Source of the DNA: Bradymonadales bacterium
Lineage (GTDB): Bacteria > Myxococcota_A > UBA9042 > PWKZ01
DNA: 34,810 bases
Assembly (NCBI GenBank): GCA_003559575.1
Contig: PWKZ01000270.1
Span: 1 to 34,810, forward strand
Reading direction: 5' to 3'
Shown: positions 1 through 34,810 of the stretch, one piece after another
Layout of the letters: each line of letters begins with the position of its first letter
Position numbering within the stretch: the stretch's first letter is position 1
Notes under the pieces: generated by a model
What the model saw: the letters and a program-made list of their open reading frames with translations, nothing else
The model's database searches: none
What the model was told of the DNA's origin: nothing
Translations under genes and position numbers: made by a program

Positions 1-6
1 CAAACC

Positions 7-92
7 ATAATCGTCGGCCCATCCTGGTATTCGCGCGCGGATTCACGCACATCTGCGGCGTCACCTGCACCGAATTAGTGCTCGACTTAAGC
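7..92 (+). repeat. Left half of the dispersed MITE-like repeat (copy A)
   Basis: This stretch matches the left half of the complete copies at 17211-17384 and 28965-29141: terminal ATAATCGTCGG, then the ATTCGCGCGCGGATTCA block, then CTGCGGCGTCACCTG and CGAATTAGTGCTCGAC. The match stops near 92, where the central hairpin of full copies would begin, so this copy is truncated. Read on the minus strand, the end contains ATG at 22-20 followed by codons for GRRLW, running out of the window to the left. Confidence 0.8.
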
Positions 93-339: not shown

Positions 340-577
340 GCTTGACTTCCGCGTGGCGGTTGTACTATTCATCGAGCGCTTAGGCGTGGGACAAAGGAGA
401 GCGTTGAGCCCGGGTGTCGTCTCCGCGAGACAGGTACCCCACCCCCTTCAGCGCGACTGTTTTGCGGCTCGCGAGCAGACTTTGTGTCCTGTGCCGAAGC
501 CCTTCTCCCCGCAGTTCATGGCCCTCAGGGAAACGAGTTCCAGTGCGTCGTGTGGGCAACTGACGAAAGGAAAAGCG

Positions 578-3500
578 ATGCAACGCGACTTGACCAAACG
601 GATAGCCTTTTTGTTTGCCGGCGCGCTTTTGCTCGCGGCCGTCGCGTGTGACGACTCGGCGCGCCCCGAGACGACCGCGCCTGGTCTCATCATGCAGGAA
701 CTCGAGCGCGCTGAGATCGAGATTGAGTCGGAGCTGATAGTCAGGCTCACCCACGACGAACCCGAGCTCGGCTACATGATCTACTTCCGGAGTCGTCCGG
801 ATCTCTCAACTGCGTACGAGCTGGACTGGCACTCCCGGGGGCGGTATGTGGCGGCGGCGCTCCAGAAGAACGCGGAGCGAGCCCAACAGAGGGTGCGCGC
901 CCTTCTCGACACCAACCATGTCGAGTACAAGGCTTTCTGGATCGACAACATCATCGCCGTGGAGCGAGGAGACCTCGCCACTCTCAACCAGCTCATGGCC
1001 TACGATGAGATCGCGGCCATCCGAGCGCCGCGCACGATGGCGCTCATCAAACCCGAACACACGGAGCCGGCGGTCGCCTTTCCCCAGGCGATTGAGTCCA
1101 ACCTGACTCGGATCAACGCCGACGAAGTATGGGCGCTCGGCTATCGCGGCGAAGGGATGGTTTTGGCCTCCATCGACAGCGGTGTCCGCTACACCCACGA
1201 GGTGCTGGTTGAAGGCTACCGAGGCAACCTTGGCGGGGGCTCTTTCGACCACAACTTCAACTGGTGGGACCCCTACGTCGCCCACCCGGGCGCGCCAGTG
1301 GATTATCACAGCCACGGCTCGCACGTGACCGGCATCATGACCGGGGAAGACGCCGCCATGGGCAACCGGATCGGCGTCGCGCCGGGAGCCGTTTGGATCG
1401 CCTGCGCCGGATGCAACAGCAACCAATGCTCGGGTGTCTCCTTGCTCGAATGCGCGCAGTTCCTCACCGCCCCCTGGGATCTCGGCCAAGACAACCCCGA
1501 TCCGGACAAACGCCCCCATGTGATCAACAACTCCTGGGGTGATTGCGGCACCAGCTACGACGGCTGGTATCAGGGGGTCGTCGACGCCTGGCACGCCGCC
1601 GGCATCTACCCCGTCTTTGCCAACGGCAACAACACCAATTGCCTCTACCCGGCGCCGCCCGGCTGCAACACCGTCGGCAACCCGGCTCGCTACGGCAACG
1701 TCAGCGGGGTGGGCTCCACCGGTCAGAACAACGGCGCTTATGCGACCCACTCCAACTGGGGTCCGACCGACAACCCCAACCCCTTCGATTTTGACGGATA
1801 CCCCAACATCAAGCCCGATTTCGCCGCCCCGGGGGTCAACATCCGCTCGGCCGTCAACACCGGCGACGGCAGCTACGAGAGCTGGGGGGGGACCTCCATG
1901 TCCGCGCCCCATGTGGCCGGCGTGATCTCTCTCATCTGGCAGGCGGCGCCTTGTCTGATAGGTAGTTTCGCGGAGACGGAGGCGGTGCTCAAGACCACCG
2001 CGGTCCCCATCCCTTACGACTCAACTTGCGGCGGCGAGGGAGGGGGGGACCATCCCAACAACGCCACCGGGTGGGGTGAAATCGACGCGCTGGCGGCGGT
2101 CGATTTGGCTACCGGCCTGTGCGGCCCAAGCGGCTCTTTAGAGGGCTATGTGACCGGCACGGGTGGAGAGCCCATCGTGGGCGCCCTGGTCGAGATCGGC
2201 GGGCGCTCGGGGCTCAGCGACGCCGCCGGACACTACCGCGTGTTGCACGTCCCCGAGGGCACTCATGGCGCCGTGGTCAGCCACTACCGATATTTTCCGG
2301 AGGTTTTCGACGACGTGGTGATCGCTGAGGACGAGACGACCCCGCTGGATGCCCAGTTGAGCCCACGCCCCAGCGCCCCGCTCTCCGGTACGGTGCGCGA
2401 CGGCTCGGGGCACGGTTGGCCGCTCTACGCCCGTCTCGATGTCATCGCGCCGATGGGCGAGATGGAGCGAGTCTACACCGACCCCATGACCGGGTCCTAC
2501 TCGACCGGTTTGCTCACCGGCGTGGAGTACACGGTCATCGTGACCGCCCACTTGGCGGGCTATGCACAGAAGATCGCGGTTGTGACCATCGGATCCGAGA
2601 CGGTGCGGGATTTCGTGCTCGAGTCGCCGAACTGCGACGCGCCGGGGTATGCGCCGCAATATCTGGTGGCCTATTTCGAGGACTTTGAAACCGATGACGG
2701 TGGGTTCACGACCAGCGGAGTCACCAGCTTCGCGTGGGGGCAACCCACCTCGGGCCCCGGCGCGGCCTACTCCGGCGTGAACGCCTGGGGGACCAACCTG
2801 GCCGGAGACTACGGCAACAACGAAAACGGCTCGGTGGTCTCACCCGTGATCGATTTGTCGGCCTACTCGAGCGAGCTGACTCTGAGTTGGTGGCAGTATC
2901 TCAACACCGAAAGAAGCTGGGACTCTGCCTATGTTGACGTCAGCAACGATGGCGGCAGCACCTGGCAGGCCATTTACGGGCCGGTCAGTGGGGGCATCGA
3001 CACAGTCTGGGCCGAGCGCACTCACGTTCTTGATGCCGGTTACACCTCCGGCGAGTTCCGGGTCCGCTTCCGGATGACCACGGACGGCTCGGTGACTTAC
3101 CCCGGATTCTTCATCGACGACGTCGGAATCATGGCGATCGAGCCGGACTGCCTCAAAACGGCAGGGGGGCTCGTCTTCGGGCAGGTCCGGGACTTGAACG
3201 ACGGTCGTGGTGTCGTCGGCGCCGTGGTCGAGGATGGCCACGGGACTTTGGCCGAAACCTTTGAAAACGCCGACGACCCAAGCCTCCCGGTGGGGGTCTA
3301 CTTCTTGTTCGCTCCTCCGGGCGAGGGCACGTTGAGCGCCACTGCCCCCGGATACGGCGTTTCCACCCAAGGAGCGACGGTCCCAGAAGGTGGGGTGGTC
3401 AGGCGCGATTTCGATCTCGGCACCGGGCGGCTGCAGCTGACCGGCGGACCCATTTACGACAGGCTCCACGCCGACCGGATGGACGCGACCCACCACCTCA

Positions 3501-6500
3501 TGCTCGAGAACACCGGCACCGCGACAGTGCATTACGAGATTGGGTTGCGCCGGGGCCATGCTTCTTCAAGCGCACCGCACGGCGCGCCGTTCGATTTGAC
3601 CCGACTGGCGGAGCCGGTGGCGACAGGCGCGGCGGCGCAGGCCCTCACCGCGCAATACCTCGACGCCCTAGAGGCGCCCGCCCGGCATGTCACCGCCGAG
3701 GATGCGCTAATCATCAATGAGTTCGCCACCGGACACGTCCTGTCATGGGCGGCTGCGGTGGATCGCCACTCGGGGATGGTCTGGGTCGGCGAGACCATGA
3801 ACACCGTTGGCAACACGAGCGACGACTTTCTGGAGATATTCTCACCGGACGGAGTCTCCCACGGCACGGTGCCGAGTGACCTCGGCGGCTCTTTCGTGGC
3901 CGGTGGTTGCTACGATGAGACTCAAGATCTGCTGTGGTTCGTCAATGTGGGCAGCGACAACTGCATTCACGCGGTGGATCCGAGGCACGAGGCTTTCACC
4001 GGCGAGATGATTTGTCCCGGGTGGCACACGAACCAGCGCGGTCTGGCCCACGATCCGAACACCGACACTTTTTACGCGGGCACCTGGAATGACAGAACTA
4101 TCACGCACTTCACCCGCGACGGGACGATTCTCGATAACGTATTCGTCGATCTCGGGATCTCCGGGCTCGCCTACAACCAGGTGTCGGGGCATCTGTACGT
4201 CGCGGAGAGCAAGGCCAACAACGTCGGCGGATCACTGCACGTCATGGATCCGCATGACGAGTATGCGATCTTGAGGAGCTACAACTTCCCGGGGAAGCAG
4301 GACTTCTTCCAGGCGGGACTCGGGATCGACTGCGACGGGAGTGCCTGGATTGTCGACCAAAAAGAGAACAAAGCCTATCAGGTGGACGTGGGCGAGCCCC
4401 CGGTCTGCGGTCTCGATTGGGCCGAAGCGGCGCCCGAGGCGGGAGCGCTCGCGCCCGGCGAGAGCGTCTCGCTGATTGTTCGACTCTACGCCGACGAGGT
4501 GGACTTCGGGCATCATGAGGGGCGCCTGGCGATCTGGAACGACACCCCCTACGGCACCGCTGCGGTTGACCTTACGATGGATTATGTCGACAACCATACG
4601 GTCACAATTACGACCGAAGGCGGCGGCACCACCTCCCCGGCGGGAGAGGTCACGGTATTGGGGCTCGATGATCTGGCAATCCGGATCGTGCCGGAGCCGG
4701 GGCACCACGCACACGAGGTCTATTTGGACGGAGAGTACCAGGGCCGTCGCCTCGAGGAGCTTGTAATCGAGCGGGTCGAGCGCGCGCATGCCGTGCATGT
4801 CGTCTTCGGCTATACCTGCGCTTTGGACACTGACTGCGTCAATCCGCACAACGACTGCCTGGGGATCTGCCACGACGAGATCTGTCTCTTCGACATATTC
4901 AAGTCGCCGGGAGACGCTTGCGGCGATCAGACGGCCACCCGCTGCACCGCCCCCGAGACATGTAATGGTTTTGGAGTTTGTCTGACGAACCACGCTCCCT
5001 CGGGCACCTCATGCGACGCCGACGGCGATGGCTGCACCGTCGGCGACTCGTGCAGCGCCGGAGTCTGCCTCGCCGGAGCCCGGGCCGATTGCTCCCACGA
5101 GAACGATCCCTGTAACACCGGCGTCTGCGTCTCGACCGGCAGCGACTCGTATGTCTGTGAGAAGGATTCGGCCCCCCACGAAGGCCGCGCCTGTGACGCC
5201 GACGGCGACGGTTGCACCGTCGGCGACTCGTGCAGCGCCGGAGTTTGCGTCGCCGGCGCCGCGCCCGATTGCTCGGCGCTGGACGACGCTTGCAACGTGG
5301 GTGTCTGCCTCTCCACCGGACCGAATAGCTACGTCTGTCAAAGAGATCCGGCGCCTCTCGAGGGTGAGCTCTGCGACGCCGACGGCGACGGCTGCACGGT
5401 CGGGGACTCGTGCAGCGCCGGAGTCTGCCTCGCCGGAGCCCGGGCCGATTGCTCCCACGAGAGTGATCAATGTAACGCAGGCGTCTGCGTCTCGACCGGC
5501 AGCGACTCGTATGTCTGCAAGAAGGATCCGAGCCCCTACGAGGATCGTCGCTGCAACGCCGATGACAACGGCTGCACGGTCGGCGACTCGTGCAGCGCCG
5601 GAGTTTGCGTCGCGGGCGCCGCGCCCGATTGCTCGGCGCTGGACGACGCTTGCAACGTGGGCGTCTGCCTCTCCACCGGCCCGAATAGCTACGTCTGTCA
5701 AAGAGATCCGGCGCCTCTCGAGGGTGAGCTCTGCGACGCCGACGGCGACGGCTGCACCGTCGACGATTCGTGCAGAGCCGGAGTCTGTCTCGCCGGAGAT
5801 CCGCCCGACTGCTCCGACGAGGACGATCCCTGCAACACCGGCATCTGTGTCTCGACCGGGAGTGACTCGTATGTCTGTGAGAAGGATCCGACCCCTCACG
5901 AGGGTGATCTTTGCGACGCCGACGGCGACGGCTGCACGGTGGACGACACCTGCCACGAGGGCGTTTGTCTCGCCGGAGCCCGGGCCGATTGCTCCCACGA
6001 GAGTGACCCATGTAACGTAGGCGTCTGCGTCTCGACCGGGAGCGACTCGTATGTCTGTGAGAAGGATCCGACCCCCCACGAGGGTGATCTTTGCGACGCC
6101 GACGGCGACGGCTGCACAGTGGACGACATCTGCCACGAGGGCGTCTGCGTCGCGGGCGCCGCGCCCGACTGTTCGGCGCTGGATGACGCCTGCAACGTGG
6201 GCGTCTGCGTCACCACCGGGCCGAATAGCTACGCCTGTCAAAAGGATCCGGCGCCTCTCGAGGGCGAAATTTGCGACGCCGACGGCGACGGCTGCACAGT
6301 GGACGACATCTGCCACGAGGGCGTCTGCGTCGCGGGCGCCGCGCCCGACTGTTCGGCGCTGGATGACGCTTGCAACGTGGGCGTCTGCGTCACCACCGGC
6401 CCGAATAGCTACATCTGTCAAAAAGATCCGGCGCCTCTCGAGGGTGAACTCTGCGACGCCGACGGCGACGGCTGCACGGTGGATGATGCCTGCCGCGATG

Positions 6501-7600
6501 GGGTCTGCGTCGCCGGGGCTTTGGCCGACTGCTCGGGTGAGGACGATCAATGCAACACCGGCGTCTGCGTCTCGACCGGCAGCGACTCGTACGTCTGCCA
6601 GAAGAACCCGACCCCCCACGAGGGAGACCGTTGCGACGACGGCGATAGCTGTACCTTCGAGGACCGCTGCCGGCCCGACGGCACATGCGTCGGCAGCCCA
6701 TACACCTGCGACGATCCCGACCGCTGCGAGACGGCGGAGGGGGCGGTTTGCCTGGGAGATGGGACATGCAGCTACCCCGCCACTCCAGGTGTCGAATGTG
6801 ACGACGGCGATCCGTGCACCGTGGCTGAGTGTGACGGTCACGAGTGTTTGCCGATCCGAGAAGTGGACAACTGCTGCACGGATCTTCTTGAATGTCACGT
6901 CCCGTTTGAGATGTGCGACCTGGATCATAACCTGTGTGTCACGGTGATGTGTTCTCCGTGCGTGCAACACGGAGACTGTGGTGCGGAGGGCAACCTTTGT
7001 GTCATGGGCCCGCATGGCGACTACTGTGCGGTCGCCTGTGCGCCGGATGCAGAGGAAGCTTGCCCCGAGGGCACGGCTTGTCGCGAACTCGACGGGGGCT
7101 CCTTCCAATGCCTGCCGCTTTTGGGCGACTGCTTCTGCGAGCCGCGCGAGGAGCTGGTCTGTCTCGAGGGAACTCTTGTCTGGCGCTCGAGCTGCGGTGA
7201 CCACGGGGATGTGGTGGCCTACTGCGGCGAGCGTGGTTGTTCGGCCGGCGCTTGCTGCCCCGAAGGGACGACGGAAATCGACGGGGATTGCGTCGTGGTT
7301 GATGATCCTTTCGCGCCCAAGCCGGACGCCGGCGAACACGATCCAGACCGGCCGGGCGCGAGAGATGCGGGCGGCGAGATGGACGCCATCCGAATCGACT
7401 CCGAGGGTCCGGTGGACGGGCTCGAGCCGGATGACGAAGGCGCCACCGGAGGCGGTGGCGGGTGCGCCGTCGGGGCGACGGGCGGTGGTCAAGGGAGCAC
7501 CGCCGCATGGTCGCTGGTGATGGCGCTCTTGACGGCGCTGGCCGCGCTGCGTTTCGGTGCCCCCCGAATGCGCGGCGCGCGGCCGGGGGCCGACGTCTAG
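578..7600 (+). CDS. Giant secreted subtilisin-like protease with Cys-rich repeats and MYXO-CTERM tail
   Basis: 2340 residues from ATG 578, chosen because AAAGGA lies 7 bases upstream and a secretion signal follows directly; the frame is open further upstream. Residues 1-24 are a lipoprotein-like signal ending LLLAAVAC (Cys24). An I9-like propeptide region follows, then an S8 peptidase domain with Asp200 (SIDSG), His246 (HGSH), Asn351 and Ser440 (GTSMSAPHVAG). After it come carboxypeptidase-regulatory-like beta domains, a MAM/jelly-roll-like segment (near residues 700-850), a beta-propeller-like part, nine Cys-rich 60-residue repeats (about 1479-2018) and more Cys-rich sequence. The C-terminus has GGGGGC (Cys2296), a hydrophobic helix and an Arg-rich end, matching the MYXO-CTERM surface-anchoring signal. 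Likely an extracellular or surface protease; substrate unknown. Having both a lipobox-like N-terminus and a MYXO-CTERM tail is unusual. Confidence 0.92.
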   Translation: MQRDLTKRIAFLFAGALLLAAVACDDSARPETTAPGLIMQELERAEIEIESELIVRLTHDEPELGYMIYFRSRPDLSTAYELDWHSRGRYVAAALQKNAERAQQRVRALLDTNHVEYKAFWIDNIIAVERGDLATLNQLMAYDEIAAIRAPRTMALIKPEHTEPAVAFPQAIESNLTRINADEVWALGYRGEGMVLASIDSGVRYTHEVLVEGYRGNLGGGSFDHNFNWWDPYVAHPGAPVDYHSHGSHVTGIMTGEDAAMGNRIGVAPGAVWIACAGCNSNQCSGVSLLECAQFLTAPWDLGQDNPDPDKRPHVINNSWGDCGTSYDGWYQGVVDAWHAAGIYPVFANGNNTNCLYPAPPGCNTVGNPARYGNVSGVGSTGQNNGAYATHSNWGPTDNPNPFDFDGYPNIKPDFAAPGVNIRSAVNTGDGSYESWGGTSMSAPHVAGVISLIWQAAPCLIGSFAETEAVLKTTAVPIPYDSTCGGEGGGDHPNNATGWGEIDALAAVDLATGLCGPSGSLEGYVTGTGGEPIVGALVEIGGRSGLSDAAGHYRVLHVPEGTHGAVVSHYRYFPEVFDDVVIAEDETTPLDAQLSPRPSAPLSGTVRDGSGHGWPLYARLDVIAPMGEMERVYTDPMTGSYSTGLLTGVEYTVIVTAHLAGYAQKIAVVTIGSETVRDFVLESPNCDAPGYAPQYLVAYFEDFETDDGGFTTSGVTSFAWGQPTSGPGAAYSGVNAWGTNLAGDYGNNENGSVVSPVIDLSAYSSELTLSWWQYLNTERSWDSAYVDVSNDGGSTWQAIYGPVSGGIDTVWAERTHVLDAGYTSGEFRVRFRMTTDGSVTYPGFFIDDVGIMAIEPDCLKTAGGLVFGQVRDLNDGRGVVGAVVEDGHGTLAETFENADDPSLPVGVYFLFAPPGEGTLSATAPGYGVSTQGATVPEGGVVRRDFDLGTGRLQLTGGPIYDRLHADRMDATHHLMLENTGTATVHYEIGLRRGHASSSAPHGAPFDLTRLAEPVATGAAAQALTAQYLDALEAPARHVTAEDALIINEFATGHVLSWAAAVDRHSGMVWVGETMNTVGNTSDDFLEIFSPDGVSHGTVPSDLGGSFVAGGCYDETQDLLWFVNVGSDNCIHAVDPRHEAFTGEMICPGWHTNQRGLAHDPNTDTFYAGTWNDRTITHFTRDGTILDNVFVDLGISGLAYNQVSGHLYVAESKANNVGGSLHVMDPHDEYAILRSYNFPGKQDFFQAGLGIDCDGSAWIVDQKENKAYQVDVGEPPVCGLDWAEAAPEAGALAPGESVSLIVRLYADEVDFGHHEGRLAIWNDTPYGTAAVDLTMDYVDNHTVTITTEGGGTTSPAGEVTVLGLDDLAIRIVPEPGHHAHEVYLDGEYQGRRLEELVIERVERAHAVHVVFGYTCALDTDCVNPHNDCLGICHDEICLFDIFKSPGDACGDQTATRCTAPETCNGFGVCLTNHAPSGTSCDADGDGCTVGDSCSAGVCLAGARADCSHENDPCNTGVCVSTGSDSYVCEKDSAPHEGRACDADGDGCTVGDSCSAGVCVAGAAPDCSALDDACNVGVCLSTGPNSYVCQRDPAPLEGELCDADGDGCTVGDSCSAGVCLAGARADCSHESDQCNAGVCVSTGSDSYVCKKDPSPYEDRRCNADDNGCTVGDSCSAGVCVAGAAPDCSALDDACNVGVCLSTGPNSYVCQRDPAPLEGELCDADGDGCTVDDSCRAGVCLAGDPPDCSDEDDPCNTGICVSTGSDSYVCEKDPTPHEGDLCDADGDGCTVDDTCHEGVCLAGARADCSHESDPCNVGVCVSTGSDSYVCEKDPTPHEGDLCDADGDGCTVDDICHEGVCVAGAAPDCSALDDACNVGVCVTTGPNSYACQKDPAPLEGEICDADGDGCTVDDICHEGVCVAGAAPDCSALDDACNVGVCVTTGPNSYICQKDPAPLEGELCDADGDGCTVDDACRDGVCVAGALADCSGEDDQCNTGVCVSTGSDSYVCQKNPTPHEGDRCDDGDSCTFEDRCRPDGTCVGSPYTCDDPDRCETAEGAVCLGDGTCSYPATPGVECDDGDPCTVAECDGHECLPIREVDNCCTDLLECHVPFEMCDLDHNLCVTVMCSPCVQHGDCGAEGNLCVMGPHGDYCAVACAPDAEEACPEGTACRELDGGSFQCLPLLGDCFCEPREELVCLEGTLVWRSSCGDHGDVVAYCGERGCSAGACCPEGTTEIDGDCVVVDDPFAPKPDAGEHDPDRPGARDAGGEMDAIRIDSEGPVDGLEPDDEGATGGGGGCAVGATGGGQGSTAAWSLVMALLTALAALRFGAPRMRGARPGADV
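5012..6631 (+). repeat. Nine tandem 180-bp units encoding Cys-rich repeats
   Basis: The coding sequence repeats with a period of exactly 180 bp (60 codons) nine times, then decays into a degenerate unit. Each unit begins CDADGDGCTV, an acidic loop resembling Ca-binding loops, and has regularly spaced cysteines. Two subtypes alternate: A (ARADCSHE...STGSDSYVC) and B (AAPDCSALDDACNVGVC...TGPNSYVC), in order A B A B A A B B A. Units 7 and 8 are almost identical in DNA, indicating recent duplication. Confidence 0.9.
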
Positions 7601-9323: not shown

Positions 9324-9378
9324 CCCCTAATTCCCCACCTGCACCGGCATTCGTGCGCGGATCCGCGCGCGAATCCCA
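9324..9378 (-). repeat. Dispersed repeat, short form, upstream of the nitrogenase-like operon (copy B)
   Basis: This 55-base segment is 51/55 identical by eye to 13987-14041, beyond the other end of the HDK operon, in the same orientation. The AATCCGCGCGCGAATCCCA block matches (reverse complement) the left part of the full-length repeats. The copy lacks the terminal GACGATTA end. Confidence 0.8.
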
Positions 9379-9597: not shown

Positions 9598-10410
9598 ATG
9601 GAGCGGATCGCCATTTATGGGAAAGGCGGAATCGGCAAGAGCGTTATTGCGACCCATTTGAGCGCCGAGTTTGCCCGGCGTGGGTTGAGTGTTTTACATG
9701 TGGGCTGTGATCCGAAGGCCGACTCGTCTTGTCGTCTCACCGGCACCGCCCAAGTGAAGACCGTGCTGGGGGCGATGGGGATGAACCCGGAGGAGATCTC
9801 CGCGCCCCAGATAGTCACGCCGGCGCGCAACGGGATCTCCTGCATCGAGGCCGGCGGTCCGGAGCCCGGATCGGGCTGCGGAGGGCGCGGAGTGGCGCGG
9901 GCGGTGGAGCTCATCGGGGAGCTCGATCTGATGAATGAGCGGGAGTTCGACGTGGCCCTCTTCGATGTCCTCGGAGACGTGGTCTGCGGCGGTTTTGCGG
10001 CCCCGATGCGGCAGGGCTTCGGCGAGAAGGTTTTCATTGTCGTCTCCGAGGAGGCGATGGCCTTGTTCGCCGCCAACAACATCGCTCGTGCGATAATCAA
10101 CTACTCGTACAACGGCATCGTGCTCGCGGGGTTGGTCGCCAACGTGCGCTCCGCCAATGAAGCGGATCGCGAGCGGCTCCACCGCTTCGCCGCGCGGCTT
10201 GGGACCAAGGTGGTGGCAGTGATCGAGCGCTCCGAGTTGATCTCGGCGGCCGAGAGGCAGCTCATGACGGTCATCGACACGGCGCCTGAATCCGACGTCG
10301 CCAAGATATTCAGCGGGCTCGCCGAATTCACGCTCGGGTTCGAGGTCGCCGAGGTGGCCAACCCGACGCCGATGACAGAGGACGAGTTTTTCGAGTTCAT
10401 GCGGGAGTGA
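9598..10410 (+). CDS. NifH/BchL-family reductase component (nitrogenase-like iron protein)
   Basis: 270 residues, the usual length for this family. These proteins are homodimeric ATPases that hold one [4Fe-4S] cluster between subunits and pass electrons to a NifDK-like partner during ATP hydrolysis. Visible hallmarks are the P-loop GKGGIGKS (8-15), CDPKADS (37-43), cluster ligands Cys94 (GSGCGGRGV) and Cys130 (DVLGDVVCGGFA), and Arg97, at the position of the NifH ADP-ribosylated Arg. It is the first gene of a three-gene operon, 4 bases before the next start. The sequence is close to the NifH core but lacks the long C-terminal tail of true NifH. NifH, BchL/BchX, CfbC and MarH relatives cannot be separated from this protein alone; the partner genes argue for an uncharacterised subgroup. 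Confidence 0.93.
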   Translation: MERIAIYGKGGIGKSVIATHLSAEFARRGLSVLHVGCDPKADSSCRLTGTAQVKTVLGAMGMNPEEISAPQIVTPARNGISCIEAGGPEPGSGCGGRGVARAVELIGELDLMNEREFDVALFDVLGDVVCGGFAAPMRQGFGEKVFIVVSEEAMALFAANNIARAIINYSYNGIVLAGLVANVRSANEADRERLHRFAARLGTKVVAVIERSELISAAERQLMTVIDTAPESDVAKIFSGLAEFTLGFEVAEVANPTPMTEDEFFEFMRE

Positions 10411-10414
10411 GAGG

Positions 10415-12490
10415 ATGGCGGACACAAAGCCTGCTAAAGGGAGCGACGGGCGAGAGCAGAAGCTGACGCTCGCGGCCATGCAGGGGCACACCTTCGCGGG
10501 AGGAGCTTATTCCCGGGCGGAATTCGGGGCGCTCCTGGGGCTTGCGCCGATCGAGGACTGGGAGCCCAGGCTGGGCCCCCGTCTCAAGGTGGCCGCCTGG
10601 GTCAAGGAACGCGCCGAGCTAACCATCGACGAGGGGGACGACACCCCCGAGAACGTGATCGTGATCGAGCGCTACCACACCGGGCGCTCCGGTCTCGTCC
10701 ATTCAAAGACCCTCAACGTCTGGGCGCGCAACGACGGTGTGCCCTGGGATCTGATCCTGCGGCTGCGGCTCGCGGTGCGAGGCCGTTTGGGGCGGCTGAG
10801 CGCCGAGCACATCGCGAGAGTCTTCGCGTCGGATCCGGAAATCGGCAGCGCGCGCTACGAGGCGCCGGCGGTGGTCGCAGAGGCGCGTGAGGATGAGTTT
10901 GACCGCCAGGCGTTTTTGTTCAACTGGGGCGGCTCGGACATGTGGTACCAGTTTTTCGCCACGGCCGAGTACTCGCGTGCACGGCTCGAATCGCTCGACC
11001 TTCTTGACCGCGCCACATCGGTCAACCACTGCGATCGCGAGTGTCTCGCCAACGAGCCGCATATTCCCCTGCGAGTGCCGCTGACCAATTTTCCCTGGGA
11101 TGATCGAATCCGGCGCTCGTGGGGGGGGCGCGAGGGGTTGCCTCCCGAGGATCTGAACCCCACTCCCAAGGAGGCGCCCCCCGGCCTGGAGGAGCACGCC
11201 GAGTTCTTGGGCATCAGGGGTGCAAAGAAGCGCCCGCGCGACGAGGGGACAGTCTTGAAGGGCGGCTATCGGACCCAATCGCACTACACCGAGCTGACCG
11301 ACTACGACGTGATTATGGGTGGCCAGAAGAAGCTCGCCCGGGTGCTCGATTTCGCCATCGACAACCTCTTCGGCGACATGCTCTTTGCCCACGTGACCTG
11401 CATCCCGGCGGTCACCGGCGAGGACGTCGAGGGGGTCATTCGTCAAGCTCAGAAGCGCTGTCCCGTCCCGATCTTGACCCTCACCATGACACCGGACGCC
11501 AAGGACGTGATTTTCGGTCCTATTTTGGTGGAGAGCCGAAAGGAAGCCGAGGAGCGGATCAAGGCGCGAAACCCGCGGGCGGTGAATCTAATCGGATTCC
11601 CGGAGGACGCCGGCACCGGTGAGCTGGTCAAGATGATTCAGCAAGCGGGGGTCGAGCTGAACGTCATCCTGATGCCGCGGGTGCAGCTCGAGCGGGTACG
11701 GCGGCTCCCGTTGGCTCCGCTGCATGTAATCCACCCCAACGAGTTTTGGCAGAACTTGTACAATCAGCTCCTCTTCGACACCGAGATCAACTCCATCACG
11801 CCCGAGGCGCCCTACGGCTATCGTCGAACAGCCGCCTGGTGCGAGCAGGTGGTGGCCGCCGCCGGCGGTGACCGCGCGTGCTTGCCGCAGGTGTTGGAGG
11901 AGGCCTGGGCGCCCTATCGAGAGCGCTTCGAGGCGCTCAAGAGCGAAGCCGCCCAGTATCGGTTGGGCTTCGTGCTGGGGGGCGATCAGGTGCGCCAGGT
12001 AGCCGACCCCGGCACCACCTGGGGTATACCGCTGCTCGGTATTCTCGAGGAGTTCGGCTTTTCGATGGACTTCATGATTCACACCTCTGATCGCCGAGAG
12101 GGGGCCGAGGCCGTCAAAGACCTCAAAGCTCCGCTCGAGGACACCGGGGATCGCCACCGCTTCCGGCTGTTCCAGACTCCGTCGCAGCTCAAGGCGCTAC
12201 TCGGCACCGGCGGCTTCGCGGCCGTCTACAGCGAGCATTTTTTCGACTTCCGCATCTCGCGCTCCGGCAAGTCCCAGTTCTCCCTGACCATGTTCGAGCG
12301 TGGTTTCGGCGGGGCGCTACGGACTCTCGAGCGGTTGGTCCAGGTCTGCCGACTGCCGCTTTTCCACCGTTATGGCAAGTTCATGGGTGAGGCGTTCCCC
12401 TGGGCGTCGGACACCGAAGCGCTCGAGTCGCTTTCGAACCGTCGCGCGCAGCAGGGGCGCGACAGGAGAGAGGGAGATCCCCGGTCATGA
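10415..12490 (+). CDS. Enlarged NifD/NifK-like catalytic subunit with novel N-terminal region
   Basis: 691 residues, against about 420-550 in known NifD, BchN/B and MarD proteins. Residues 1-290 have no counterpart I recognise; they include WGGSDMWYQF (171-180) and CDREC (Cys206, Cys210). From about 297 the NifDK fold is clear: DVIMGGQKKL, then HVTCIPAVTGEDVEGVI, whose Cys329 matches NifD Cys154. Later come the GYRRTAAW and FERGFGGALRTLERL motifs of the family's other domains. At the position of the FeMo-cofactor Cys275 I read HVIHP, so that ligand appears absent, and no clear equivalent of cofactor His442 is seen. The Shine-Dalgarno GGGAG lies in the end of the NifH-like gene, and the stop overlaps the next start (ATGA). 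Probably the alpha-type subunit of a reductase of unknown substrate. Confidence 0.85.
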   Translation: MADTKPAKGSDGREQKLTLAAMQGHTFAGGAYSRAEFGALLGLAPIEDWEPRLGPRLKVAAWVKERAELTIDEGDDTPENVIVIERYHTGRSGLVHSKTLNVWARNDGVPWDLILRLRLAVRGRLGRLSAEHIARVFASDPEIGSARYEAPAVVAEAREDEFDRQAFLFNWGGSDMWYQFFATAEYSRARLESLDLLDRATSVNHCDRECLANEPHIPLRVPLTNFPWDDRIRRSWGGREGLPPEDLNPTPKEAPPGLEEHAEFLGIRGAKKRPRDEGTVLKGGYRTQSHYTELTDYDVIMGGQKKLARVLDFAIDNLFGDMLFAHVTCIPAVTGEDVEGVIRQAQKRCPVPILTLTMTPDAKDVIFGPILVESRKEAEERIKARNPRAVNLIGFPEDAGTGELVKMIQQAGVELNVILMPRVQLERVRRLPLAPLHVIHPNEFWQNLYNQLLFDTEINSITPEAPYGYRRTAAWCEQVVAAAGGDRACLPQVLEEAWAPYRERFEALKSEAAQYRLGFVLGGDQVRQVADPGTTWGIPLLGILEEFGFSMDFMIHTSDRREGAEAVKDLKAPLEDTGDRHRFRLFQTPSQLKALLGTGGFAAVYSEHFFDFRISRSGKSQFSLTMFERGFGGALRTLERLVQVCRLPLFHRYGKFMGEAFPWASDTEALESLSNRRAQQGRDRREGDPRS

Positions 12491-13911
12491 CCATCGATGT
12501 CAATAAGAGGAGTGGGGAGGAGAGAGAGTCCTCCGCACCGCTGCCCAGCGAGATGTTGGACACCTCGGCGCGAGTCACCACCACGTGTCTCATCGGGGCC
12601 TATGCGGCGATCAACGCCATCCCCGACTCCTATCTGCTGGTAGACGCGCCGGACTGTGCGCACCTCAAAGCGCAGTTCATCCACGGCAACCACGACTTGA
12701 TGTCGACGCTCATCAGCATCAGCGGGTATCACCGGATCGGCAACACCGCGCTGCACTGCTGGAAAGTGATCGACAAGCGCGACGAGCAGATAGTGGCGCT
12801 GCTCGAGAAGATGGGGGAGTTCGAGGGCTCCGGGGTGGTCATGATGACCTCGATGCCGATGGCTACCATCGTCGGGATCGATTACGAGCGTCTGGTGCGC
12901 CAGGCGCAGGCCCGCTCCGGCACCGACACCTTCCACGTGTTCGATCGGGCGATTGACGGCGACTGGATGGACGGCTACGCCGAAGTGCTCGACACCTTGG
13001 CGCGCTCCATGCCTCTCTCCGATGAGATCGAGCGCGATCCGAAGAAGGTCGCCATCGTCGGCTACTTCATGGATCGCAACGAAGAGGACCACCACGGCAA
13101 CCTGCGCGAGCTTCGCCGCCTGATCGAAGGGCTGGGGCTCGAGCTTTGCACCGTGTGGGCCGGCGGTGAGCCCTGGGAGACCATGAAGCGCGGGATCCAG
13201 GAGGCCGGCACGATCCTCTCGTTCCCGTACGCGCGCAAGGCGGCGCGCACTCTGGAGCGACGCGTTGGGACCCCGGTGCTCGAGTGCCGCCTGCCGTTCG
13301 GGCTCAACGCGACCGTCAAGTGGCTCGAGCAGTTGGGCGAGTCAATCGCGCGCCCCGAGGTGGCGGCGGATCTCATCGCGCGTGAGCTACAGGCGATTAT
13401 GCCGCGCCTCGAGTTCGTGGTGCCGTTTCACTTCCTGCACCGCCGGGCCATGTTCGTTGGCGACCCACATCTCGCCGCGGGGTTTGTCGAGATCGTCGAA
13501 GAGTTCGGTGGGACAGTGCCGTTCATGGCGATCACGAGCCGCAAGCAGAACGCCCGGCATCTGCGCGACGGGCTCTCCGACACCACGCTGCACGTCGATC
13601 CGACCATCGCCTCGCTGATGGAGCACACGATGGAGCATCAGCGGTCCGTGGATCTCGTGGTGAGCTGCAACACCACCGGGGCCGGTCCCGCCACCGAGGG
13701 GCACATTGAGTTCGGCTTCCCCTGTTATGAGCGCCACGCGCTCTATGATCGACCGTTTCTCGGGTTCAGCGGCTTGATGGCTTTCGCCGACGAGATGTTG
13801 CGCGAGCTTAGAAAAGTTGATCAGATGAAACTGCGCCGCGAGAAAGACCGCGAGAAGGGCCCGAATGGCCCCGATGGCCCGGGCGGCCCCGACGGCCCGG
13901 GCGGCCCCTGA
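12487..13911 (+). CDS. NifK/BchB-like second catalytic subunit
   Basis: 474 residues, typical for the family. Cys34 (TTCLIGAYAAI) and Cys57 (LLVDAPDCAHL) are spaced like NifK Cys70 and Cys95. The third ligand motif reads TSMPMATIVGIDYERLV, with Pro124 at the place of NifK Cys153. The C-terminal family motif is present (HIEFGFPCYERHALYDRPF, then GFSGLMAFADEML). It overlaps the upstream subunit gene by 4 bp (ATGA), implying translational coupling and a 1:1 complex. The last residues are a Pro/Gly/Asp-rich tail from an 18-bp DNA repeat, absent from known relatives as far as I know. It most likely forms a heterotetramer with the 691-residue subunit and shares an intersubunit Fe-S cluster; the substrate is unknown. 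Confidence 0.88.
   Translation: MTIDVNKRSGEERESSAPLPSEMLDTSARVTTTCLIGAYAAINAIPDSYLLVDAPDCAHLKAQFIHGNHDLMSTLISISGYHRIGNTALHCWKVIDKRDEQIVALLEKMGEFEGSGVVMMTSMPMATIVGIDYERLVRQAQARSGTDTFHVFDRAIDGDWMDGYAEVLDTLARSMPLSDEIERDPKKVAIVGYFMDRNEEDHHGNLRELRRLIEGLGLELCTVWAGGEPWETMKRGIQEAGTILSFPYARKAARTLERRVGTPVLECRLPFGLNATVKWLEQLGESIARPEVAADLIARELQAIMPRLEFVVPFHFLHRRAMFVGDPHLAAGFVEIVEEFGGTVPFMAITSRKQNARHLRDGLSDTTLHVDPTIASLMEHTMEHQRSVDLVVSCNTTGAGPATEGHIEFGFPCYERHALYDRPFLGFSGLMAFADEMLRELRKVDQMKLRREKDREKGPNGPDGPGGPDGPGGP
13867..13908 (+). repeat. 18-bp tandem repeat in the 3' end of the NifK-like gene
   Basis: The unit GGCCCCGAYGGCCCGGGC is present 2.3 times and encodes GPDGPG repeats at the C-terminus. The GGCCCGGGC-type sequence is also strongly self-complementary. 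Confidence 0.8.
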
Positions 13912-13933: not shown

Positions 13934-13987
13934 GCCACTCACAACGCCTTGTTGGGAGTTACCGTCTCCACCGCAGTAGTGAGTGGC
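13934..13987. terminator. Long-loop inverted repeat after the nitrogenase-like operon
   Basis: GCCACTCAC (13934-13942) and GTGAGTGGC (13979-13987) are perfect 9-bp complements around a 36-base loop, which itself contains GGAG/CTCC. There is no T-tract. It may be a transcript-end structure; its right arm touches the next repeat copy. Confidence 0.4.
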
Positions 13988-14060
13988 CCCTAAGTCCCCA
14001 CCTGCACCGGCATTCGCGCGTGAATCCGCGCGCGAATCCCAGGATGGACCGACGATTATG
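13987..14060 (-). repeat. Dispersed repeat, short form, downstream of the nitrogenase-like operon (copy C)
   Basis: Bases 13987-14041 match 9324-9378 in the same orientation at 51 of 55 positions. Unlike copy B it continues to the repeat's terminal sequence (GGACCGACGATTAT). Relative to full copies the central half is missing, giving a 74-base internal-deletion form. An ATG at 14044 opens a 16-codon frame (MDRRLWRR...) that is probably not a gene. Confidence 0.78.
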
Positions 14061-14077
14061 GCGAAGGGTCGGCGCTT

Positions 14078-16161: not shown

Positions 16162-17226
16162 TCAGTGGGCGGACCAGCGGGTGATCGCGCTTTCGTATTT
16201 CTCGATCTCTTTGGCCGCCTCGCGCACCGGCTCCGAGAGGTCGATGGCCACCAGGCGCACCGCCACTGAGGCCGGGAGCGCGCTCTCATCGGCGGACAGC
16301 TCGAGCCGTTTGGCCATCTCGTCCAAGGACCGGCGGTGCGGCCGAGCGCGGTCCAGGAGTTCGATATACCACGCGCGGACCATTCGCCGCTCGCGCTGCA
16401 AATAACCCGGGTAAGGCTCGAACCAGGTGACCGGAGCACCCATCTCCTTCATCTGGGAGCTTCCCCAGGTGTCGCTCATCTCGGCGAAGTGGCGGCCCAA
16501 GAGACTGTCGACACAAGCCGCTTCGGTGGCCAGCGCGCGCCAGACTTCGGATCTCGACGGTCCATCTTCGCGCATTCGCACCATCTCACCGGTCCGCTGC
16601 CAACGCTCGGCGGCGCTCATCGCGTGACCTGTTATCCGCATCCCGGCCACCAGCGGCAGGGGCCCGCCCGCGCCCCGCAGCAAGCGCGCCAAGTGCGAAA
16701 CGGCGCGCAGCCGGTCATCGAGATGGGGCTCTGAGAGACCCACATCCCCCTGCGCGATGATGACTCGACTCAGCAGGAACAGATCCCTCACCGGGTAGTC
16801 GGCGTCGAGCCGGCATGGGTCGGTCAGATCGAGCCCCCCCCCGGCGCTGGCCCAGGCGACAAGCGAATCCGCCAGAGCCGCGTTCTCATGGAGCAAATTC
16901 TGATGCGCGCGAGTGCGCTCGCCCGGCTTGTGGGCCAGAAGTACGGCGCGCTCCAATTCGTCCCCCTTGATTTGCCGCAGCGCCTCGAGGGCCTCGCGCA
17001 GCCCCTCGTCCTCCCCCTCGACATACGGCGCGACGCGAGCGTCATCGAGTAGCGCCTGCCACTTGGCGTTGAGTCTCGCGGGGGCAATGGCCGGTTCAGC
17101 CAACCACTGGCGAACGGCCCGGCGTTGATAGAGGATCGTACTGGCGATGAGGAGTATCAAAAGGATGGCCCCCGCGCCGTGCGGGCTCGTCAAGAGCTTG
17201 CGCCAACGCCATAATCGCCGGCCCAT
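16162..17226 (-). CDS. Unknown single-pass membrane protein
   Basis: About 354 residues if started at ATG 17226. I chose this start because it gives MGRRLWRWRKLL followed by a clear helix (GAGAILLILLIASTILY), an N-in signal anchor. The frame is open to ATG 17388, which overlaps the stop of the upstream PLP gene (ATGA), but those extra 54 codons are entirely repeat copy D. An ATG at 17268 is a third option. The rest is soluble, helical and rich in charged residues and Leu, with no family I recognise. It sits between the PLP enzyme and the radical SAM gene, all on the minus strand. Confidence 0.7.
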   Translation of the reverse strand: MGRRLWRWRKLLTSPHGAGAILLILLIASTILYQRRAVRQWLAEPAIAPARLNAKWQALLDDARVAPYVEGEDEGLREALEALRQIKGDELERAVLLAHKPGERTRAHQNLLHENAALADSLVAWASAGGGLDLTDPCRLDADYPVRDLFLLSRVIIAQGDVGLSEPHLDDRLRAVSHLARLLRGAGGPLPLVAGMRITGHAMSAAERWQRTGEMVRMREDGPSRSEVWRALATEAACVDSLLGRHFAEMSDTWGSSQMKEMGAPVTWFEPYPGYLQRERRMVRAWYIELLDRARPHRRSLDEMAKRLELSADESALPASVAVRLVAIDLSEPVREAAKEIEKYESAITRWSAH

Positions 17227-17384
17227 CGAGGGATTCGCGGACGGATCCGCGCCCATCTGCGGCGTCATCTGCTCCGAATTGGTGCTCGACTTAAGCGCTG
17301 CTACGCCTCCGCCTAATTCGGCTTGTTTCCTTGCACATGAACGCGCCTCCACACGCTCGCTCCTCAGAACGAACCGACGATTAT
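17211..17384 (+). repeat. Full-length MITE-like repeat (copy D)
   Basis: 174 bases bounded by terminal inverted repeats ATAATCGCCGG and CCGACGATTAT (one mismatch). Inside is a second inverted repeat CCGAATT/AATTCGG around the central AGCGCTGCTACGCCTCC. It starts at the base after the PLP gene's stop and runs through the 5' end of the open frame of the next gene. Confidence 0.85.
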
Positions 17385-18656
17385 TCATATTTTTTCCAAG
17401 GCTTGGCGAATGTCGCGCTTGAGATCCGTTAAGTGTTCGAGCCCGACCGAGATTCTAATCAGGCCGGGGCTCACGCCCAGCAATTCCAGCTCGTCCGGCG
17501 GTACGTCGGCGTGGGTCATCGTCATTGGATGCTCCACCAGTGTCTCGGTGCCGCCCAGGGAGACCGCCAGACTACAAATCTCGAACGAGTCGAGGACCTT
17601 GAACGCGGCCTGCTCGCCGCCATCCACCTCGAAGGAGATCAATGCCCCGGGGCCGCTGCACTGGCGCTCCAAGATGTCATGTTGGTTGCTGCCGGGCTCG
17701 AGAAGGCTTGGGTGCATCACTCGGCGCACCTTCGAGTGCCTGGCGAGCATCTGCGCCAACTTGAGCGCGCTCTTGGCCTGCCGGTGCATGCGCACCGAGA
17801 GGGTCTCGAGCGAGCGCAGCAGCATCCAACCGGTAAACGGGTTGGCCATCGTGCCGAGGATCGCGCGGATCTCGAGGATCTCGTTCATTAGCGCCTGACC
17901 GCCGGAGACGACCCCGGCTATCAAGTCGCTGTGGCCGCCGATGAACTTGGTGGCCGAGTAGATGACGAGGTCGGCTCCCGAGGAGGCCGGGCGCTGGAAC
18001 ACCGGCCCGAGGAAGGTGTTGTCGACGGCCGTGACAACCGGCCGCTCGCGGTCGGTGGAGAGTCGCCGGGCCAATCGCGCCACCGCCTGGATGTCGGTGA
18101 GGGTGATTGAGGGGTTGGCCGGGGTCTCCAGGAACAACATTCGGACCCTCTCCGGCCCGCACTCGTCGGCCACGCGCGCCATCGCCGCCGGCGCGTCGTC
18201 GCCGGCCGGCACGAAGCGCACCTCGATGCCGTAGCGCGGCAGGATGTTCTTGAACAGATAGTGGGTGCCTCCGTAGACCGGCGCGGAGGACACGATGACA
18301 TCACCGGGGCGGGTCAGCGCCAGGACCGTCGAGGCGATCGCCGCCATCCCCGAGGCAAACACCGCCGCCGCTTCGGTTTGGTCAAAGGCCGCCATCCGCT
18401 CTTCGAAGATTTGGAGGTTGGGGTTGTTCAAGCGGCTGTAGATGAGCCCCGGATTCTCATCGCCCTTGGGCTCTCCGAGGCCGTAGGCCAGCTCGAAGAA
18501 ACGCTTGCCGTCGGCGGCGGAGCGGAACTGGAATGTCGAGGTCAAAAAAACCGGCGGTTTGATCGCGCCCTCCGAAAGGAAAGGATCGTATCCGTAGCCG
18601 AGAGCGAGAGTCTCTGGGCGGTAGTCAGGTCCGCCGGAGCTGTGGTTGCGTTTCAT
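17385..18656 (-). CDS. Cys/Met-metabolism PLP enzyme (cystathionine gamma-synthase / methionine gamma-lyase family)
   Basis: 423 residues, typical length, with a strong ribosome site GGGAGG five bases before ATG 18656. PLP enzymes of this family cleave or form C-S bonds at the gamma or beta carbon of sulfur amino acids. Visible are Tyr73 and Arg75 (YSRLNNPN, phosphate binding across the dimer), Asp212 (VDNTF, pyridine N), the Schiff-base Lys237 (YSATKFIGGHSD), and SLGGTETLVEHP near the end. The extra segment FFELAYGLGEPKGDENPG before YSRL is seen in a subgroup often annotated only to family level. Motifs alone cannot separate gamma-synthase, gamma-lyase and O-acetylhomoserine sulfhydrylase. 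It is first in a minus-strand run with the membrane protein and radical SAM genes. Confidence 0.93.
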   Translation of the reverse strand: MKRNHSSGGPDYRPETLALGYGYDPFLSEGAIKPPVFLTSTFQFRSAADGKRFFELAYGLGEPKGDENPGLIYSRLNNPNLQIFEERMAAFDQTEAAAVFASGMAAIASTVLALTRPGDVIVSSAPVYGGTHYLFKNILPRYGIEVRFVPAGDDAPAAMARVADECGPERVRMLFLETPANPSITLTDIQAVARLARRLSTDRERPVVTAVDNTFLGPVFQRPASSGADLVIYSATKFIGGHSDLIAGVVSGGQALMNEILEIRAILGTMANPFTGWMLLRSLETLSVRMHRQAKSALKLAQMLARHSKVRRVMHPSLLEPGSNQHDILERQCSGPGALISFEVDGGEQAAFKVLDSFEICSLAVSLGGTETLVEHPMTMTHADVPPDELELLGVSPGLIRISVGLEHLTDLKRDIRQALEKI

Positions 18657-26919: not shown

Positions 26920-27080
26920 CCCTAATCCTCAATCCTCCACCCCTTCCGGGATTCGGGAAGCGATTCGGGCCCAACTGCGGCGTCACCTGCACCGAAAACG
27001 GTGCTCGACGTAGCGCTGCGTTTCCCTCCGGCCAAGCCGTCTCTCTTGCATCTCACTCCGGTTCGACGCGCTCGGTAATC
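26920..27080 (+). repeat. Diverged copy of the dispersed repeat (copy E)
   Basis: It shares CTGCGGCGTCACCTG, CACCGAA and GGTGCTCGACGTAGCGCTGC with copy F in the same order and spacing, but the flanks differ. Its left end CCTCAATCCTCCAC matches the end of copy G, defining a second subfamily of ends. It occupies the gap between divergent genes at 26778 and 27163. Apart from it and a ribosome site the gap shows nothing clear. Confidence 0.65.
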
Positions 27081-27162
27081 GGTTTGAAACACCCCACTAG
27101 TTGCGCCGTTGCGATTAGCCCGCTATCACATTGCAAGGTCACGTCCTCTTGGGAGAGGTGTC

Positions 27163-28409: not shown

Positions 28410-28940
28410 TCATTCTTCGTCGTGGGGTACCAGCAGATCTTTTTGTTCATGTTTCAGGGTCTTGAGCAGAATGATCGTATAGCGCTTGGTCACATCGGGG
28501 GGGATCGAGTGCTCCTTCTCAACACTCTCGGCCACCCACCCGATGCTCCGCCCCTTGGCGAGTAGATCGAGGATCAGGGGGGTGGCGAGCTCCAACGCCT
28601 TACCATAGCGGTCGAGTTCGGGCTTCGTTATCAGCACCTGGGAGCGGGTCATGAGGTGGAGGACGAATTGCAGCCCTGCGTAGAGGAGCACCAGAATTCC
28701 AAGCGGGAAACGAAACCCTCGGAGCTCGAGGATGAACCAGGGCCTGAAAAACCCGACGATCATCATCGCCAGACCGATTCCACCCCAGAACTTGGTTTGC
28801 CTGAGCGGCGACATTCGCAGCATGGCGGCCTCATATGCATCTCCGTCTACCTGTCGGTGCAGGATTGGAGCGGTCGTTGACAGGTCTCGCGGTTGTGCGT
28901 ATTCCTGGGCCGAGGCCGGCGCACGCGGTGTCGAGCCCAT
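28410..28940 (-). CDS. Unknown small membrane protein with two helices
   Basis: 176 residues from ATG 28940 (MGSTPRAPASAQEYA). Upstream in-frame ATGs at 28982 and 29024 lie inside repeat copy F and would add MSRRLGLQLG or a longer run. Two hydrophobic helices (FWGGIGLAMMIVGFFRPWFI and FPLGILVLLYAGLQFVLHLM) form a hairpin in the middle, and the C-terminal half is soluble and charged (KPELDRYGKALELATPLILD), ending in acidic residues. I do not recognise the family. It is convergent with the tandem phosphoribosyltransferase gene, 20 bases away. Confidence 0.7.
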   Translation of the reverse strand: MGSTPRAPASAQEYAQPRDLSTTAPILHRQVDGDAYEAAMLRMSPLRQTKFWGGIGLAMMIVGFFRPWFILELRGFRFPLGILVLLYAGLQFVLHLMTRSQVLITKPELDRYGKALELATPLILDLLAKGRSIGWVAESVEKEHSIPPDVTKRYTIILLKTLKHEQKDLLVPHDEE

Positions 28941-28964: not shown

Positions 28965-29141
28965 CCCTAATCGTCGGCTCATCCTGGGATTCGCGCGCGG
29001 ATTCAAGCGCATCTGCGGCGTCACCTGTACCGAATTAGTGCTCGACGTAGCGCTGCTACGCCTCCGCCTAATTCGTTTTGTTTCCTTGCATTTGCACCTG
29101 ACTCCACACGCTCGGTCCTCAGAACAAGCCGACGATTAGGG
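28965..29141 (+). repeat. Full-length MITE-like repeat (copy F, reference copy)
   Basis: 177 bases with perfect 15-bp terminal inverted repeats CCCTAATCGTCGGCT and AGCCGACGATTAGGG. A nested perfect inverted repeat CGAATTAG/CTAATTCG brackets the central GTAGCGCTGCTAC palindrome. It has no transposase and is too short to code for one, so it is a non-autonomous element or a structured dispersed repeat. It sits between divergent genes, 11 bases before proC. Confidence 0.92.
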
Positions 29142-29152
29142 GGGTAGAGTAC

Positions 29153-29965
29153 ATGCTTGACAGAAGATTCGCCATCATCGGAGGGGCCGGCAAGATCGGC
29201 ACCGCTATTCTCAACGGAATGCTCGGTCAGCGCGCCGTAGTCCCGAGCCAGGTGGTCGTGACGGCTCGTCACGAGAGTTCGCTGGTGGCGCCCCGGGAGC
29301 TGGGGGTCGGCGCCACCACCGACAACTGTGAGGCCGTGAGGGGGGCGGACGTAATCGTGCTATGCGTTCACCCCGAGGACGCTCTCAAGATCTTGGACGA
29401 GGTGGCGGCAGAGCTTTCGGCGCGGCAACTGGTCATCTCGGTGGTCACTGGTCTCTCCACCACCGCTGTCGAGTGCCGGCTCCCGCCGGATGTCTCGGTC
29501 GCGCGCGCGATGCCCAACACTGCGCTGCATGTGGCCCAGTCAATGACAGCGGTGTGCCGCGGCGCGCGGGTCTCCGACGACGATCTGCGATTAGCGGTGC
29601 AGATTTTCGAGATGGTGGGCGAGGTCGAGGTCCTGGACGAGCGCCACATGAACGCCGCCACCGGACTCGGCGGGTGTGGCCCGGCGTTCGTCTTCAAGAT
29701 CATCGAGGCGCTGGCCGAGGGTGGGGTCAAGGTCGGTTTGCCGCGCGAGGCGGCGCGCAAAATGGCGGCGCAAGTTCTGCGTGGTGCCTCTGAGATGGTC
29801 ATCAGCACGGGCAAGCACCCCGCGGCGCTCAAGGATGAGGTCACGACGCCGGGGGGATGTACCATCGACGGCATCGCCAAGCTGGAGCAGCACGGGATCT
29901 CAATCGCCCTCATCGACGCAGTGGAGACCTCCACCTGCAAGGCCGGCCGCCTCCTGCGTGAATAG
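29153..29965 (+). CDS. proC: Pyrroline-5-carboxylate reductase
   Basis: 270 residues, standard length. It reduces pyrroline-5-carboxylate to proline with NAD(P)H, the last step of proline synthesis. The Rossmann motif is IIGGAGKIGTAI near the N-terminus. MPNTALHVAQSM, ATGLGGCGPAFVFKIIEAL and DEVTTPGGCTIDGI are the signature blocks of the family. The start has a G-rich sequence 8 bases upstream that is partly the end of repeat copy F. The 3' end overlaps the convergent nucleotidyltransferase gene by 66 bp. Confidence 0.96.
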   Translation: MLDRRFAIIGGAGKIGTAILNGMLGQRAVVPSQVVVTARHESSLVAPRELGVGATTDNCEAVRGADVIVLCVHPEDALKILDEVAAELSARQLVISVVTGLSTTAVECRLPPDVSVARAMPNTALHVAQSMTAVCRGARVSDDDLRLAVQIFEMVGEVEVLDERHMNAATGLGGCGPAFVFKIIEALAEGGVKVGLPREAARKMAAQVLRGASEMVISTGKHPAALKDEVTTPGGCTIDGIAKLEQHGISIALIDAVETSTCKAGRLLRE

Positions 29966-34690: not shown

Positions 34691-34810
34691 GGCCTCAATC
34701 CTCCACTCTGTCCGAGGACCGAGGGGAGTGAGGCGGGTGCAAGTGCAAGGAAACAAGCCAAATCGAGCGGAGGCGTAGCGGCGCTACGTCGAGCATCGAT
34801 TTTGTGAAGG
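34691..34810 (-). repeat. Dispersed repeat running off the window (copy G)
   Basis: The reverse complement matches the right two thirds of copy F: GTGCTCGACGTAGCG-GCTACGCCTCCG, TTGTTTCCTTGCA, and CTCGGTCCTC. Its end reads GGATTGAGG instead of CGATTAGGG and shares CCTCAATCCTCCAC with copy E. The other end is beyond the window. Confidence 0.78.

Follow-up and report, generated by a model that had tools for sequence, protein, structure and literature searches.

A MITE-like palindromic repeat as the probable 5′ end of coding frames in a few genes of a Bradymonadales bacterium

Can a mobile repeat supply the translation start of the gene beside it? The question is raised by a 34,810-nucleotide stretch of Bradymonadales DNA (the window, spanning all of contig C60), in which an earlier note had pointed to a minus-strand ATG 15 bases from the left end of three repeat copies and had proposed that insertions may have created or replaced translation starts. 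The three ATGs are where they had been described: copy A (positions 5–92, plus strand; left part only) reads ATGGGCCGACGATTATGG (MGRRLW) on the minus strand from 22 to 5, copy D reads MGRRLW from an ATG at 17224–17226 and copy F reads MSRRLG from one at 28980–28982. Those of D and F are indeed in frame with open reading frames (ORFs) ending at 16162 and 28410, respectively, and the MGRRLW frame of copy A leaves the window by running off the contig end. The place within the repeat is likewise fixed, although the distance has to be corrected: with edges set by the inverted repeats, each ATG in D and F has its A at base 18, counted from the outer end, the left edge of D being 17209 and not 17211.

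The repeat copies named in that note, A, D and F included, belong to one family, as judged with an nhmmer model built from full copies. Its consensus is 177 bp long and ends in 13-bp terminal inverted repeats (CCATAATCGTCGG and CCGACGATTATGG); the 59 distinct full copies range from 167 to 191 bp, mostly 177–180 bp, with CCAT at the start in 54 of them and ATGG at the end in 49. Direct repeats of 5–7 bp lie exactly at the edges of 15 out of 57 distinct full copies for which both flanks are present, compared to 0.05 expected from mismatched flanks, and on this ground the copies arose by insertion; the other 42, copy D among them, have no target-site duplication (TSD) of 5 bp or more. A TA-type duplication, a first guess based on D and F alone, was abandoned upon alignment of 39 copies. 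No internal ORF exceeds about 58 codons and there is no transposase gene, and 52 non-overlapping matches in 344 kb (contigs taken by number) extrapolate to ~600 copies per 3.95-Mb genome, a first look having given about 490 candidates. Short and devoid of a transposase, bounded by terminal inverted repeats, flanked by TSDs and dispersed in high copy number, the element is a mobile, non-autonomous, MITE-like palindromic repeat. Structurally it agrees with a MITE in all but an autonomous partner sharing its ends, of which none was found in the sample, where three inverted-repeat pairs 0.9–3.8 kb apart enclose no transposase recognisable by eye; genome-wide, there is a single match to PF01609. 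Folded as RNA, the element makes a single long hairpin (copy F, −105.1 kcal/mol, z −11.6; copy D, −77.4 kcal/mol, z −3.8), in which the MGRRLW ATG pairs with the other inverted repeat. Five of the 51 other genomes of the class contain weak matches to the core that lack the element ends. Among the matches listed in genome_contigs, an exact 22-base core was present at L081 only, without the rest of the element, and it had no match in viral_contigs or plasmids; an Rfam scan of the window, which does not cover ERIC, RU or Correia DNA repeats, returned only a tRNA. Copies E and G have the core common to the element and other ends. Related repeats with different ends (CCCCTAATTCCCCACC, CCTCAATCCTCCACC) occupy window positions 9324–9378, 13987–14062, 26927–27084 and 34694–34810, the second of them having one end of each kind, and several families of ends appear to be carried on one kind of core.

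The ATG is an intrinsic part of this element. It is present in 56 of the 59 distinct full copies, and the strand that exits at the left end carries ATG GGC CGA CGA TTA TGG (MGRRLW), its last 18 bases being ATGGGCCGACGATTATGG in most copies; a second ATG, in another frame, lies at both ends in the last four bases (ATGG) of the inverted repeat. A, D and F share their ATG because all are copies of one element and, since nearly every copy has it, the sharing is no evidence of use. One in-frame neighbour is a 1-in-3 event, and a signal beyond chance is seen only across the genome, not in the shared ATG of A, D and F. Starts within the element that are backed by a Shine-Dalgarno (SD) sequence and have an open exit are found at the left end of 42 of the 59 copies (39 in the MGRRLW frame, 3 in another; ATG at −129 or GTG at −144, depending on length class) and at the right end of none of the 59, and 17 copies have no SD-backed open exit at all. 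As 730 of 2000 shuffled sequences also show one and as lengths of 177, 178, 179, 180 and 182 bp are mixed among the copies, we have no indication of selection for such exits in the element; the mixed lengths likewise mean that its reading frame is not maintained as such across copies.

Copy D (17209–17386, plus strand, 178 bp, 91% identical to the consensus; left inverted repeat CCATAATCGCCGGCC at 17209, right end CCGACGATTATTC) lies between two minus-strand genes. Upstream is a PLP enzyme of Cys/Met metabolism (cystathionine gamma-synthase type; 17385–18656) with a complete C-terminus and its stop at 17385–17387; downstream is an orphan gene whose body spans 16162–17226 and which, read from ATG 17226, encodes 354 residues with one N-terminal membrane segment, GAGAILLILLIAST, directly after MGRRLW and within 20 residues. 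This gene is the last in a run of MoxR, DUF58, BatA/VWA and PLP-enzyme genes, matches no Pfam or NCBIfam family and has no homologue or orthologue in the 51 other genomes of the class. As the earlier note had it, copy D is open over its whole length: from a probable native ATG at 17386–17388, at the right end of the copy and overlapping the PLP-gene stop as ATGA, the frame runs through the repeat down to 16162 (408 residues). A refitted codon model puts the coding onset 9 nt outside the repeat (with the first model the coding segment began at 135 nt instead). Between copy D and the membrane segment the only start codons are TTGs, none with an SD, and ATG 17226 itself is without a well-spaced one. 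Because coding starts at the edge, no SD-backed start lies outside and the native ATG 17388 is in frame, copy D probably contributes the coding 5′ end or the start of its gene, and the likeliest history to be read from this arrangement is an insertion directly behind the native ATG, with a length that kept the frame. The start was not necessarily created by the repeat, which may just add about 53 residues, since 17388 still reads through it in frame. Coupled initiation at 17388 with translation through the repeat is our first choice, at slightly better than even odds; a start inside the repeat is a tentative second, and a start outside it, the third, seems improbable. Against this reading stand the missing TSD at D and the lack of homologues of its gene.

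For copy F (28965–29141, plus strand, 177 bp; inverted repeats CCCTAATCGTCGGC and GCCGACGATTAGGG), the sequence argues against a start supplied by the repeat. Codon scores stay below zero between 28979 and 28844 and turn positive from 28799, and the refitted model sets the coding onset 129 nt outside the repeat, 12 nt before an ATG at 28823 that has GAGG 5 nt upstream. Given this coding signal and the SD-backed ATG, we place the start of the gene (28410–28823, minus strand) at 28823, 141 nt outside the repeat; the MSRRLG ATG is in frame and not a likely start, and F was dropped as a second case of a repeat-supplied start. The earlier note had said that a start outside the repeat, for instance at 28940, would speak against its proposal, and at F this is in substance what we find, albeit at 28823. 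The idea of created or replaced starts is thus not supported at F; it is supported by D and by two genes described below (L096 and L130). At the other end of copy F, its terminal TTAGGG and the flanking GGG form an SD-like AGGGGGG (window 29136–29153), 8 nt before the ATG (29153) of a pyrroline-5-carboxylate reductase gene, of whose ribosome site copy F may supply half.

We surveyed element ends in 141 sequences totalling 1.65 Mb (window included) and in another 13 loci (33 kb); together these cover about 43% of the genome and were in part picked for holding element matches. Considering the 205 distinct ends with at least 60 nt outside, we retained every end-frame that stays open for 75 codons or more and, over the first 75, outscores each of the five others; 43 did so, two of them facing the same gene and some scoring low in every frame, and all were judged by reading. 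A direct case was one in which coding reaches the repeat edge and no SD-backed start lies outside. Six genes qualify: D, L096, L130, L200, L026 and L123 8199. The first five leave the left end in the MGRRLW frame (frame 0; 5 of 11) and the sixth in the frame of the terminal ATG (frame 2; 1 of 7); the third left-end frame gave 0 of 6 and the right end, where the survey found no direct case, 0 of 19. Compared to the other five end-frames together (1 of 32), the MGRRLW frame is enriched, with a one-sided Fisher p of about 0.0025 by our own arithmetic on classes defined post hoc. Genes cut off in the frames that have no ATG (left frame 1, right frames 0 and 1) number 0 of 16, and in 37 of the 43 end-frames the gene starts outside the repeat. 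Judged by eye, the segment right after the repeat is signal-like or membrane-spanning in four of the six genes (D, L096, L130 and L200); L123 has a Tat-like segment, and L026 encodes an RNA methyltransferase, a soluble protein. Of the five direct copies that were measured, four (D, L130, L096 and L123) are among the more diverged, ranking 45–54 of 61, yet their ORFs are intact. Candidates at L088 15838, L083 3765, L094, L077, L097, L098 and L082 were ruled out as start-in-repeat genes, another frame or strand scoring better or all scoring poorly. An open MGRRLW frame at L089 5422 was not counted, a GTG with an SD lying outside, and L125, L119, L174, L195 16969, L029, L040, L167 and L160 have their own starts outside (by eye, SD pattern).

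The strongest case is L096, a TolC-like, OEP-domain protein, at which insertion is proven by a perfect 6-bp TSD (GCTTGC). The empty site, when joined, reads GGGAG, 7 nt, GTG (MSSRLEALPASLVGLLL) and gives the native N-terminus MSSRLEALPASLVGLLLVAFAAGAPAHAEP. With the repeat in place, this native start runs into a TAA inside the repeat after 12 codons, and the repeat ATG gives MGRRLRASLVGLLLVAFAAGAPAHAEP, that is, MGRRLR followed by the intact signal sequence; the OEP domain is complete from profile position 2. Distant OEP homologues in 20 other genomes align from residues 4–99 and are too far for a test of the start. At L130 the native ATG lies 4 nt before the repeat, with a G-rich SD, and overlaps the upstream stop as at D; it now ends after 8 codons (MPVIAGSF*), the repeat ATG gives MGRRLWTTARAWGLVVLL, and the TMEM260-like domain is present from position 1. 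Two outcomes are left for L096 and L130, a start inside the repeat or loss of expression. In the other three genes, too, coding sets in at the edge of the repeat. The repeat-derived N-terminus of L200, MGRRLWRVFFAAFGSLLSLVLFAGSLTAQVS, is signal-peptide-like by eye. In L026, homology to SP_1029, a methyltransferase of solved structure, begins at query residue 10 versus chain residue 6, so that little beyond the repeat-coded stub can be missing; both L200 and L026 lie at contig ends, and their upstream sides are not visible. The L123 8199 frame opens with the terminal ATG of the inverted repeat and gives MDKTPACFPRRDFLR; its DUF4159 domain is complete. Within that same copy (L123:8020–8199), a TAA in the right inverted repeat closes an apparent upstream gene (VECRP*) and the left end opens the next. 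L026 encodes a 23S rRNA methyltransferase, and 82 codons into its frame (L026:403–405) a TGA stands where the Fe-S motif expects Cys (PPCPLVPR-TGA-GGCQLQH); selB is found above the curated cut-off in the genome (C235:1618–3543), the sequence that follows the TGA does not fold better than its shuffles, and the TGA may be selenocysteine, a nonsense change or a sequence error.

We propose, with a probability of about 0.65, that the MITE-like element landed behind the native starts of a few genes and became the 5′ end of their coding frames, insertion behind a native start being supported at D, L130 and L096. Hundreds of insertions have been tolerated, mostly between genes, and a few would have hit a gene within its opening codons, just downstream of the native start. 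The survivors would be those with the left end toward the gene body, in a frame having an ATG. The product at D would then carry either ~53 repeat-coded residues before its membrane segment or begin at MGRRLW, and the F gene would retain its own start outside. That the repeat-joined frames are translated, and from which codon, we infer from the sequence. The hairpin would have to be opened, as the MGRRLW ATG is paired within it, and a ribosome on the short severed leader would presumably do so.

It is less probable that the genes start downstream, D at the non-ATG codon TTG 17193 and others likewise (for instance at a GTG 3 nt outside the repeat at L200), leaving the repeat as 5′ untranslated sequence. 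TTG or GTG codons do lie outside the repeat at D, L096, L130 and L200, and a start outside is what most genes near repeats have (37 of the 43 end-frames). However, those codons have no SD by the pattern used, which genes with their own starts mostly possess; L026 and L123 offer no outside start whatsoever before the conserved part, and L200 would lose the basic residues ahead of its hydrophobic segment. Equally doubtful is that the downstream ORFs are broken, unexpressed genes with a coincidental in-frame ATG. The native starts of L096 and L130 now stop inside the repeat, the MGRRLW start combines a strong hairpin with the lack of a well-spaced SD, and L026 has its in-frame TGA; against this, ORFs of 354, 419, 496 and 674 codons are open with good codon scores, the copies ahead of open ORFs are mostly 91–93% identical to the consensus, and random breakage should have given cut-off genes in the frames without an ATG, in which there are none. 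A bolder version of a start within the repeat, which we regard as a long shot, would make the element a portable translation-start cassette: a ribosome from the severed native ATG would translate a few codons into the right arm and melt the stem, exposing the left-arm ATG, such that the gene would keep running, coupled to its old start, and the basic MGRRLW would serve as the n-region of signal peptides and anchors. If true, this would explain the membrane or signal segment right behind MGRRLW in four of the six genes. Least credible is an assembly error that joined the sides of copy D from different places: a 177-bp repeat with hundreds of copies is too long to be bridged by short reads, 88 of the 282 sequence ends sampled fall within a copy and a TSD is missing at D as at most full copies, but the junction of left end and gene body is one-sided and independent of crossing the repeat, L096 has its TSD, and the upstream stop, ATG and in-frame passage at D fit together.

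Fusions of MITEs to genes are already known, and those discussed here appear functionally akin to the ones described for RU/ERIC and Rickettsia palindromic elements (PMC2759123, PMC2229807, PMC10969869). The enterobacterial repeat units RU-1, RU-2 and RU-3 (ERIC and Yersinia palindromic sequences), compared here by description, are small MITE-like palindromes (103–168 bp) with open frames fused to annotated genes (Delihas 2007, PMC2759123). In RU fusions the added peptide is reported to consist of whole repeat ORFs, and 'start codon' and 'initiation codon' are absent from that text in its available part; in the present element, by contrast, the start lies in the outer 18 bp, and at L096 the empty site with its severed native start was rebuilt from the TSD. 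Rickettsia palindromic elements, of about 150 bp, also lie in frame in coding genes and are said to encode a conserved peptide (review, PMC10969869). Our element differs from these in that its frame is not conserved across its many lengths (the copies without an SD-backed open exit included) and in that only the very 5′ end of the gene is affected. Correia elements (Neisseria miniature insertion sequences) are likewise described as short, mobile and bounded by inverted repeats, with a 107-bp form whose open frames are fused to genes (PMC2229807), a likeness of description that does not imply relatedness. Our searches of open-access literature gave no description of a MITE end that supplies a start codon behind a severed native start. 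A gene may tolerate an insertion at its most sensitive place, just after the start codon, provided that the mobile element carries a start with it. The roughly six such genes from 43% of one genome form a natural series on the same 18-bp end, useful for studying the replacement of start codons, translation through or out of a hairpin, and whether a basic repeat end can act within a signal peptide. Near repeats of this kind, automatic gene calling will err both ways, as at F.

Two further features of the window deserve mention. A NifH-like protein followed by two nitrogenase-component-1-type proteins is encoded at 9598–13911; none reaches the NCBIfam cut-offs for nitrogenase, protochlorophyllide reductase or F430 enzymes, and the region probably specifies a nitrogenase-like system. 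A nine-copy, 180-bp tandem direct repeat (4970–6709; copies 60–83% identical to the reference copy) lies inside a 2415-residue ORF (353–7600) with subtilase-like matches.
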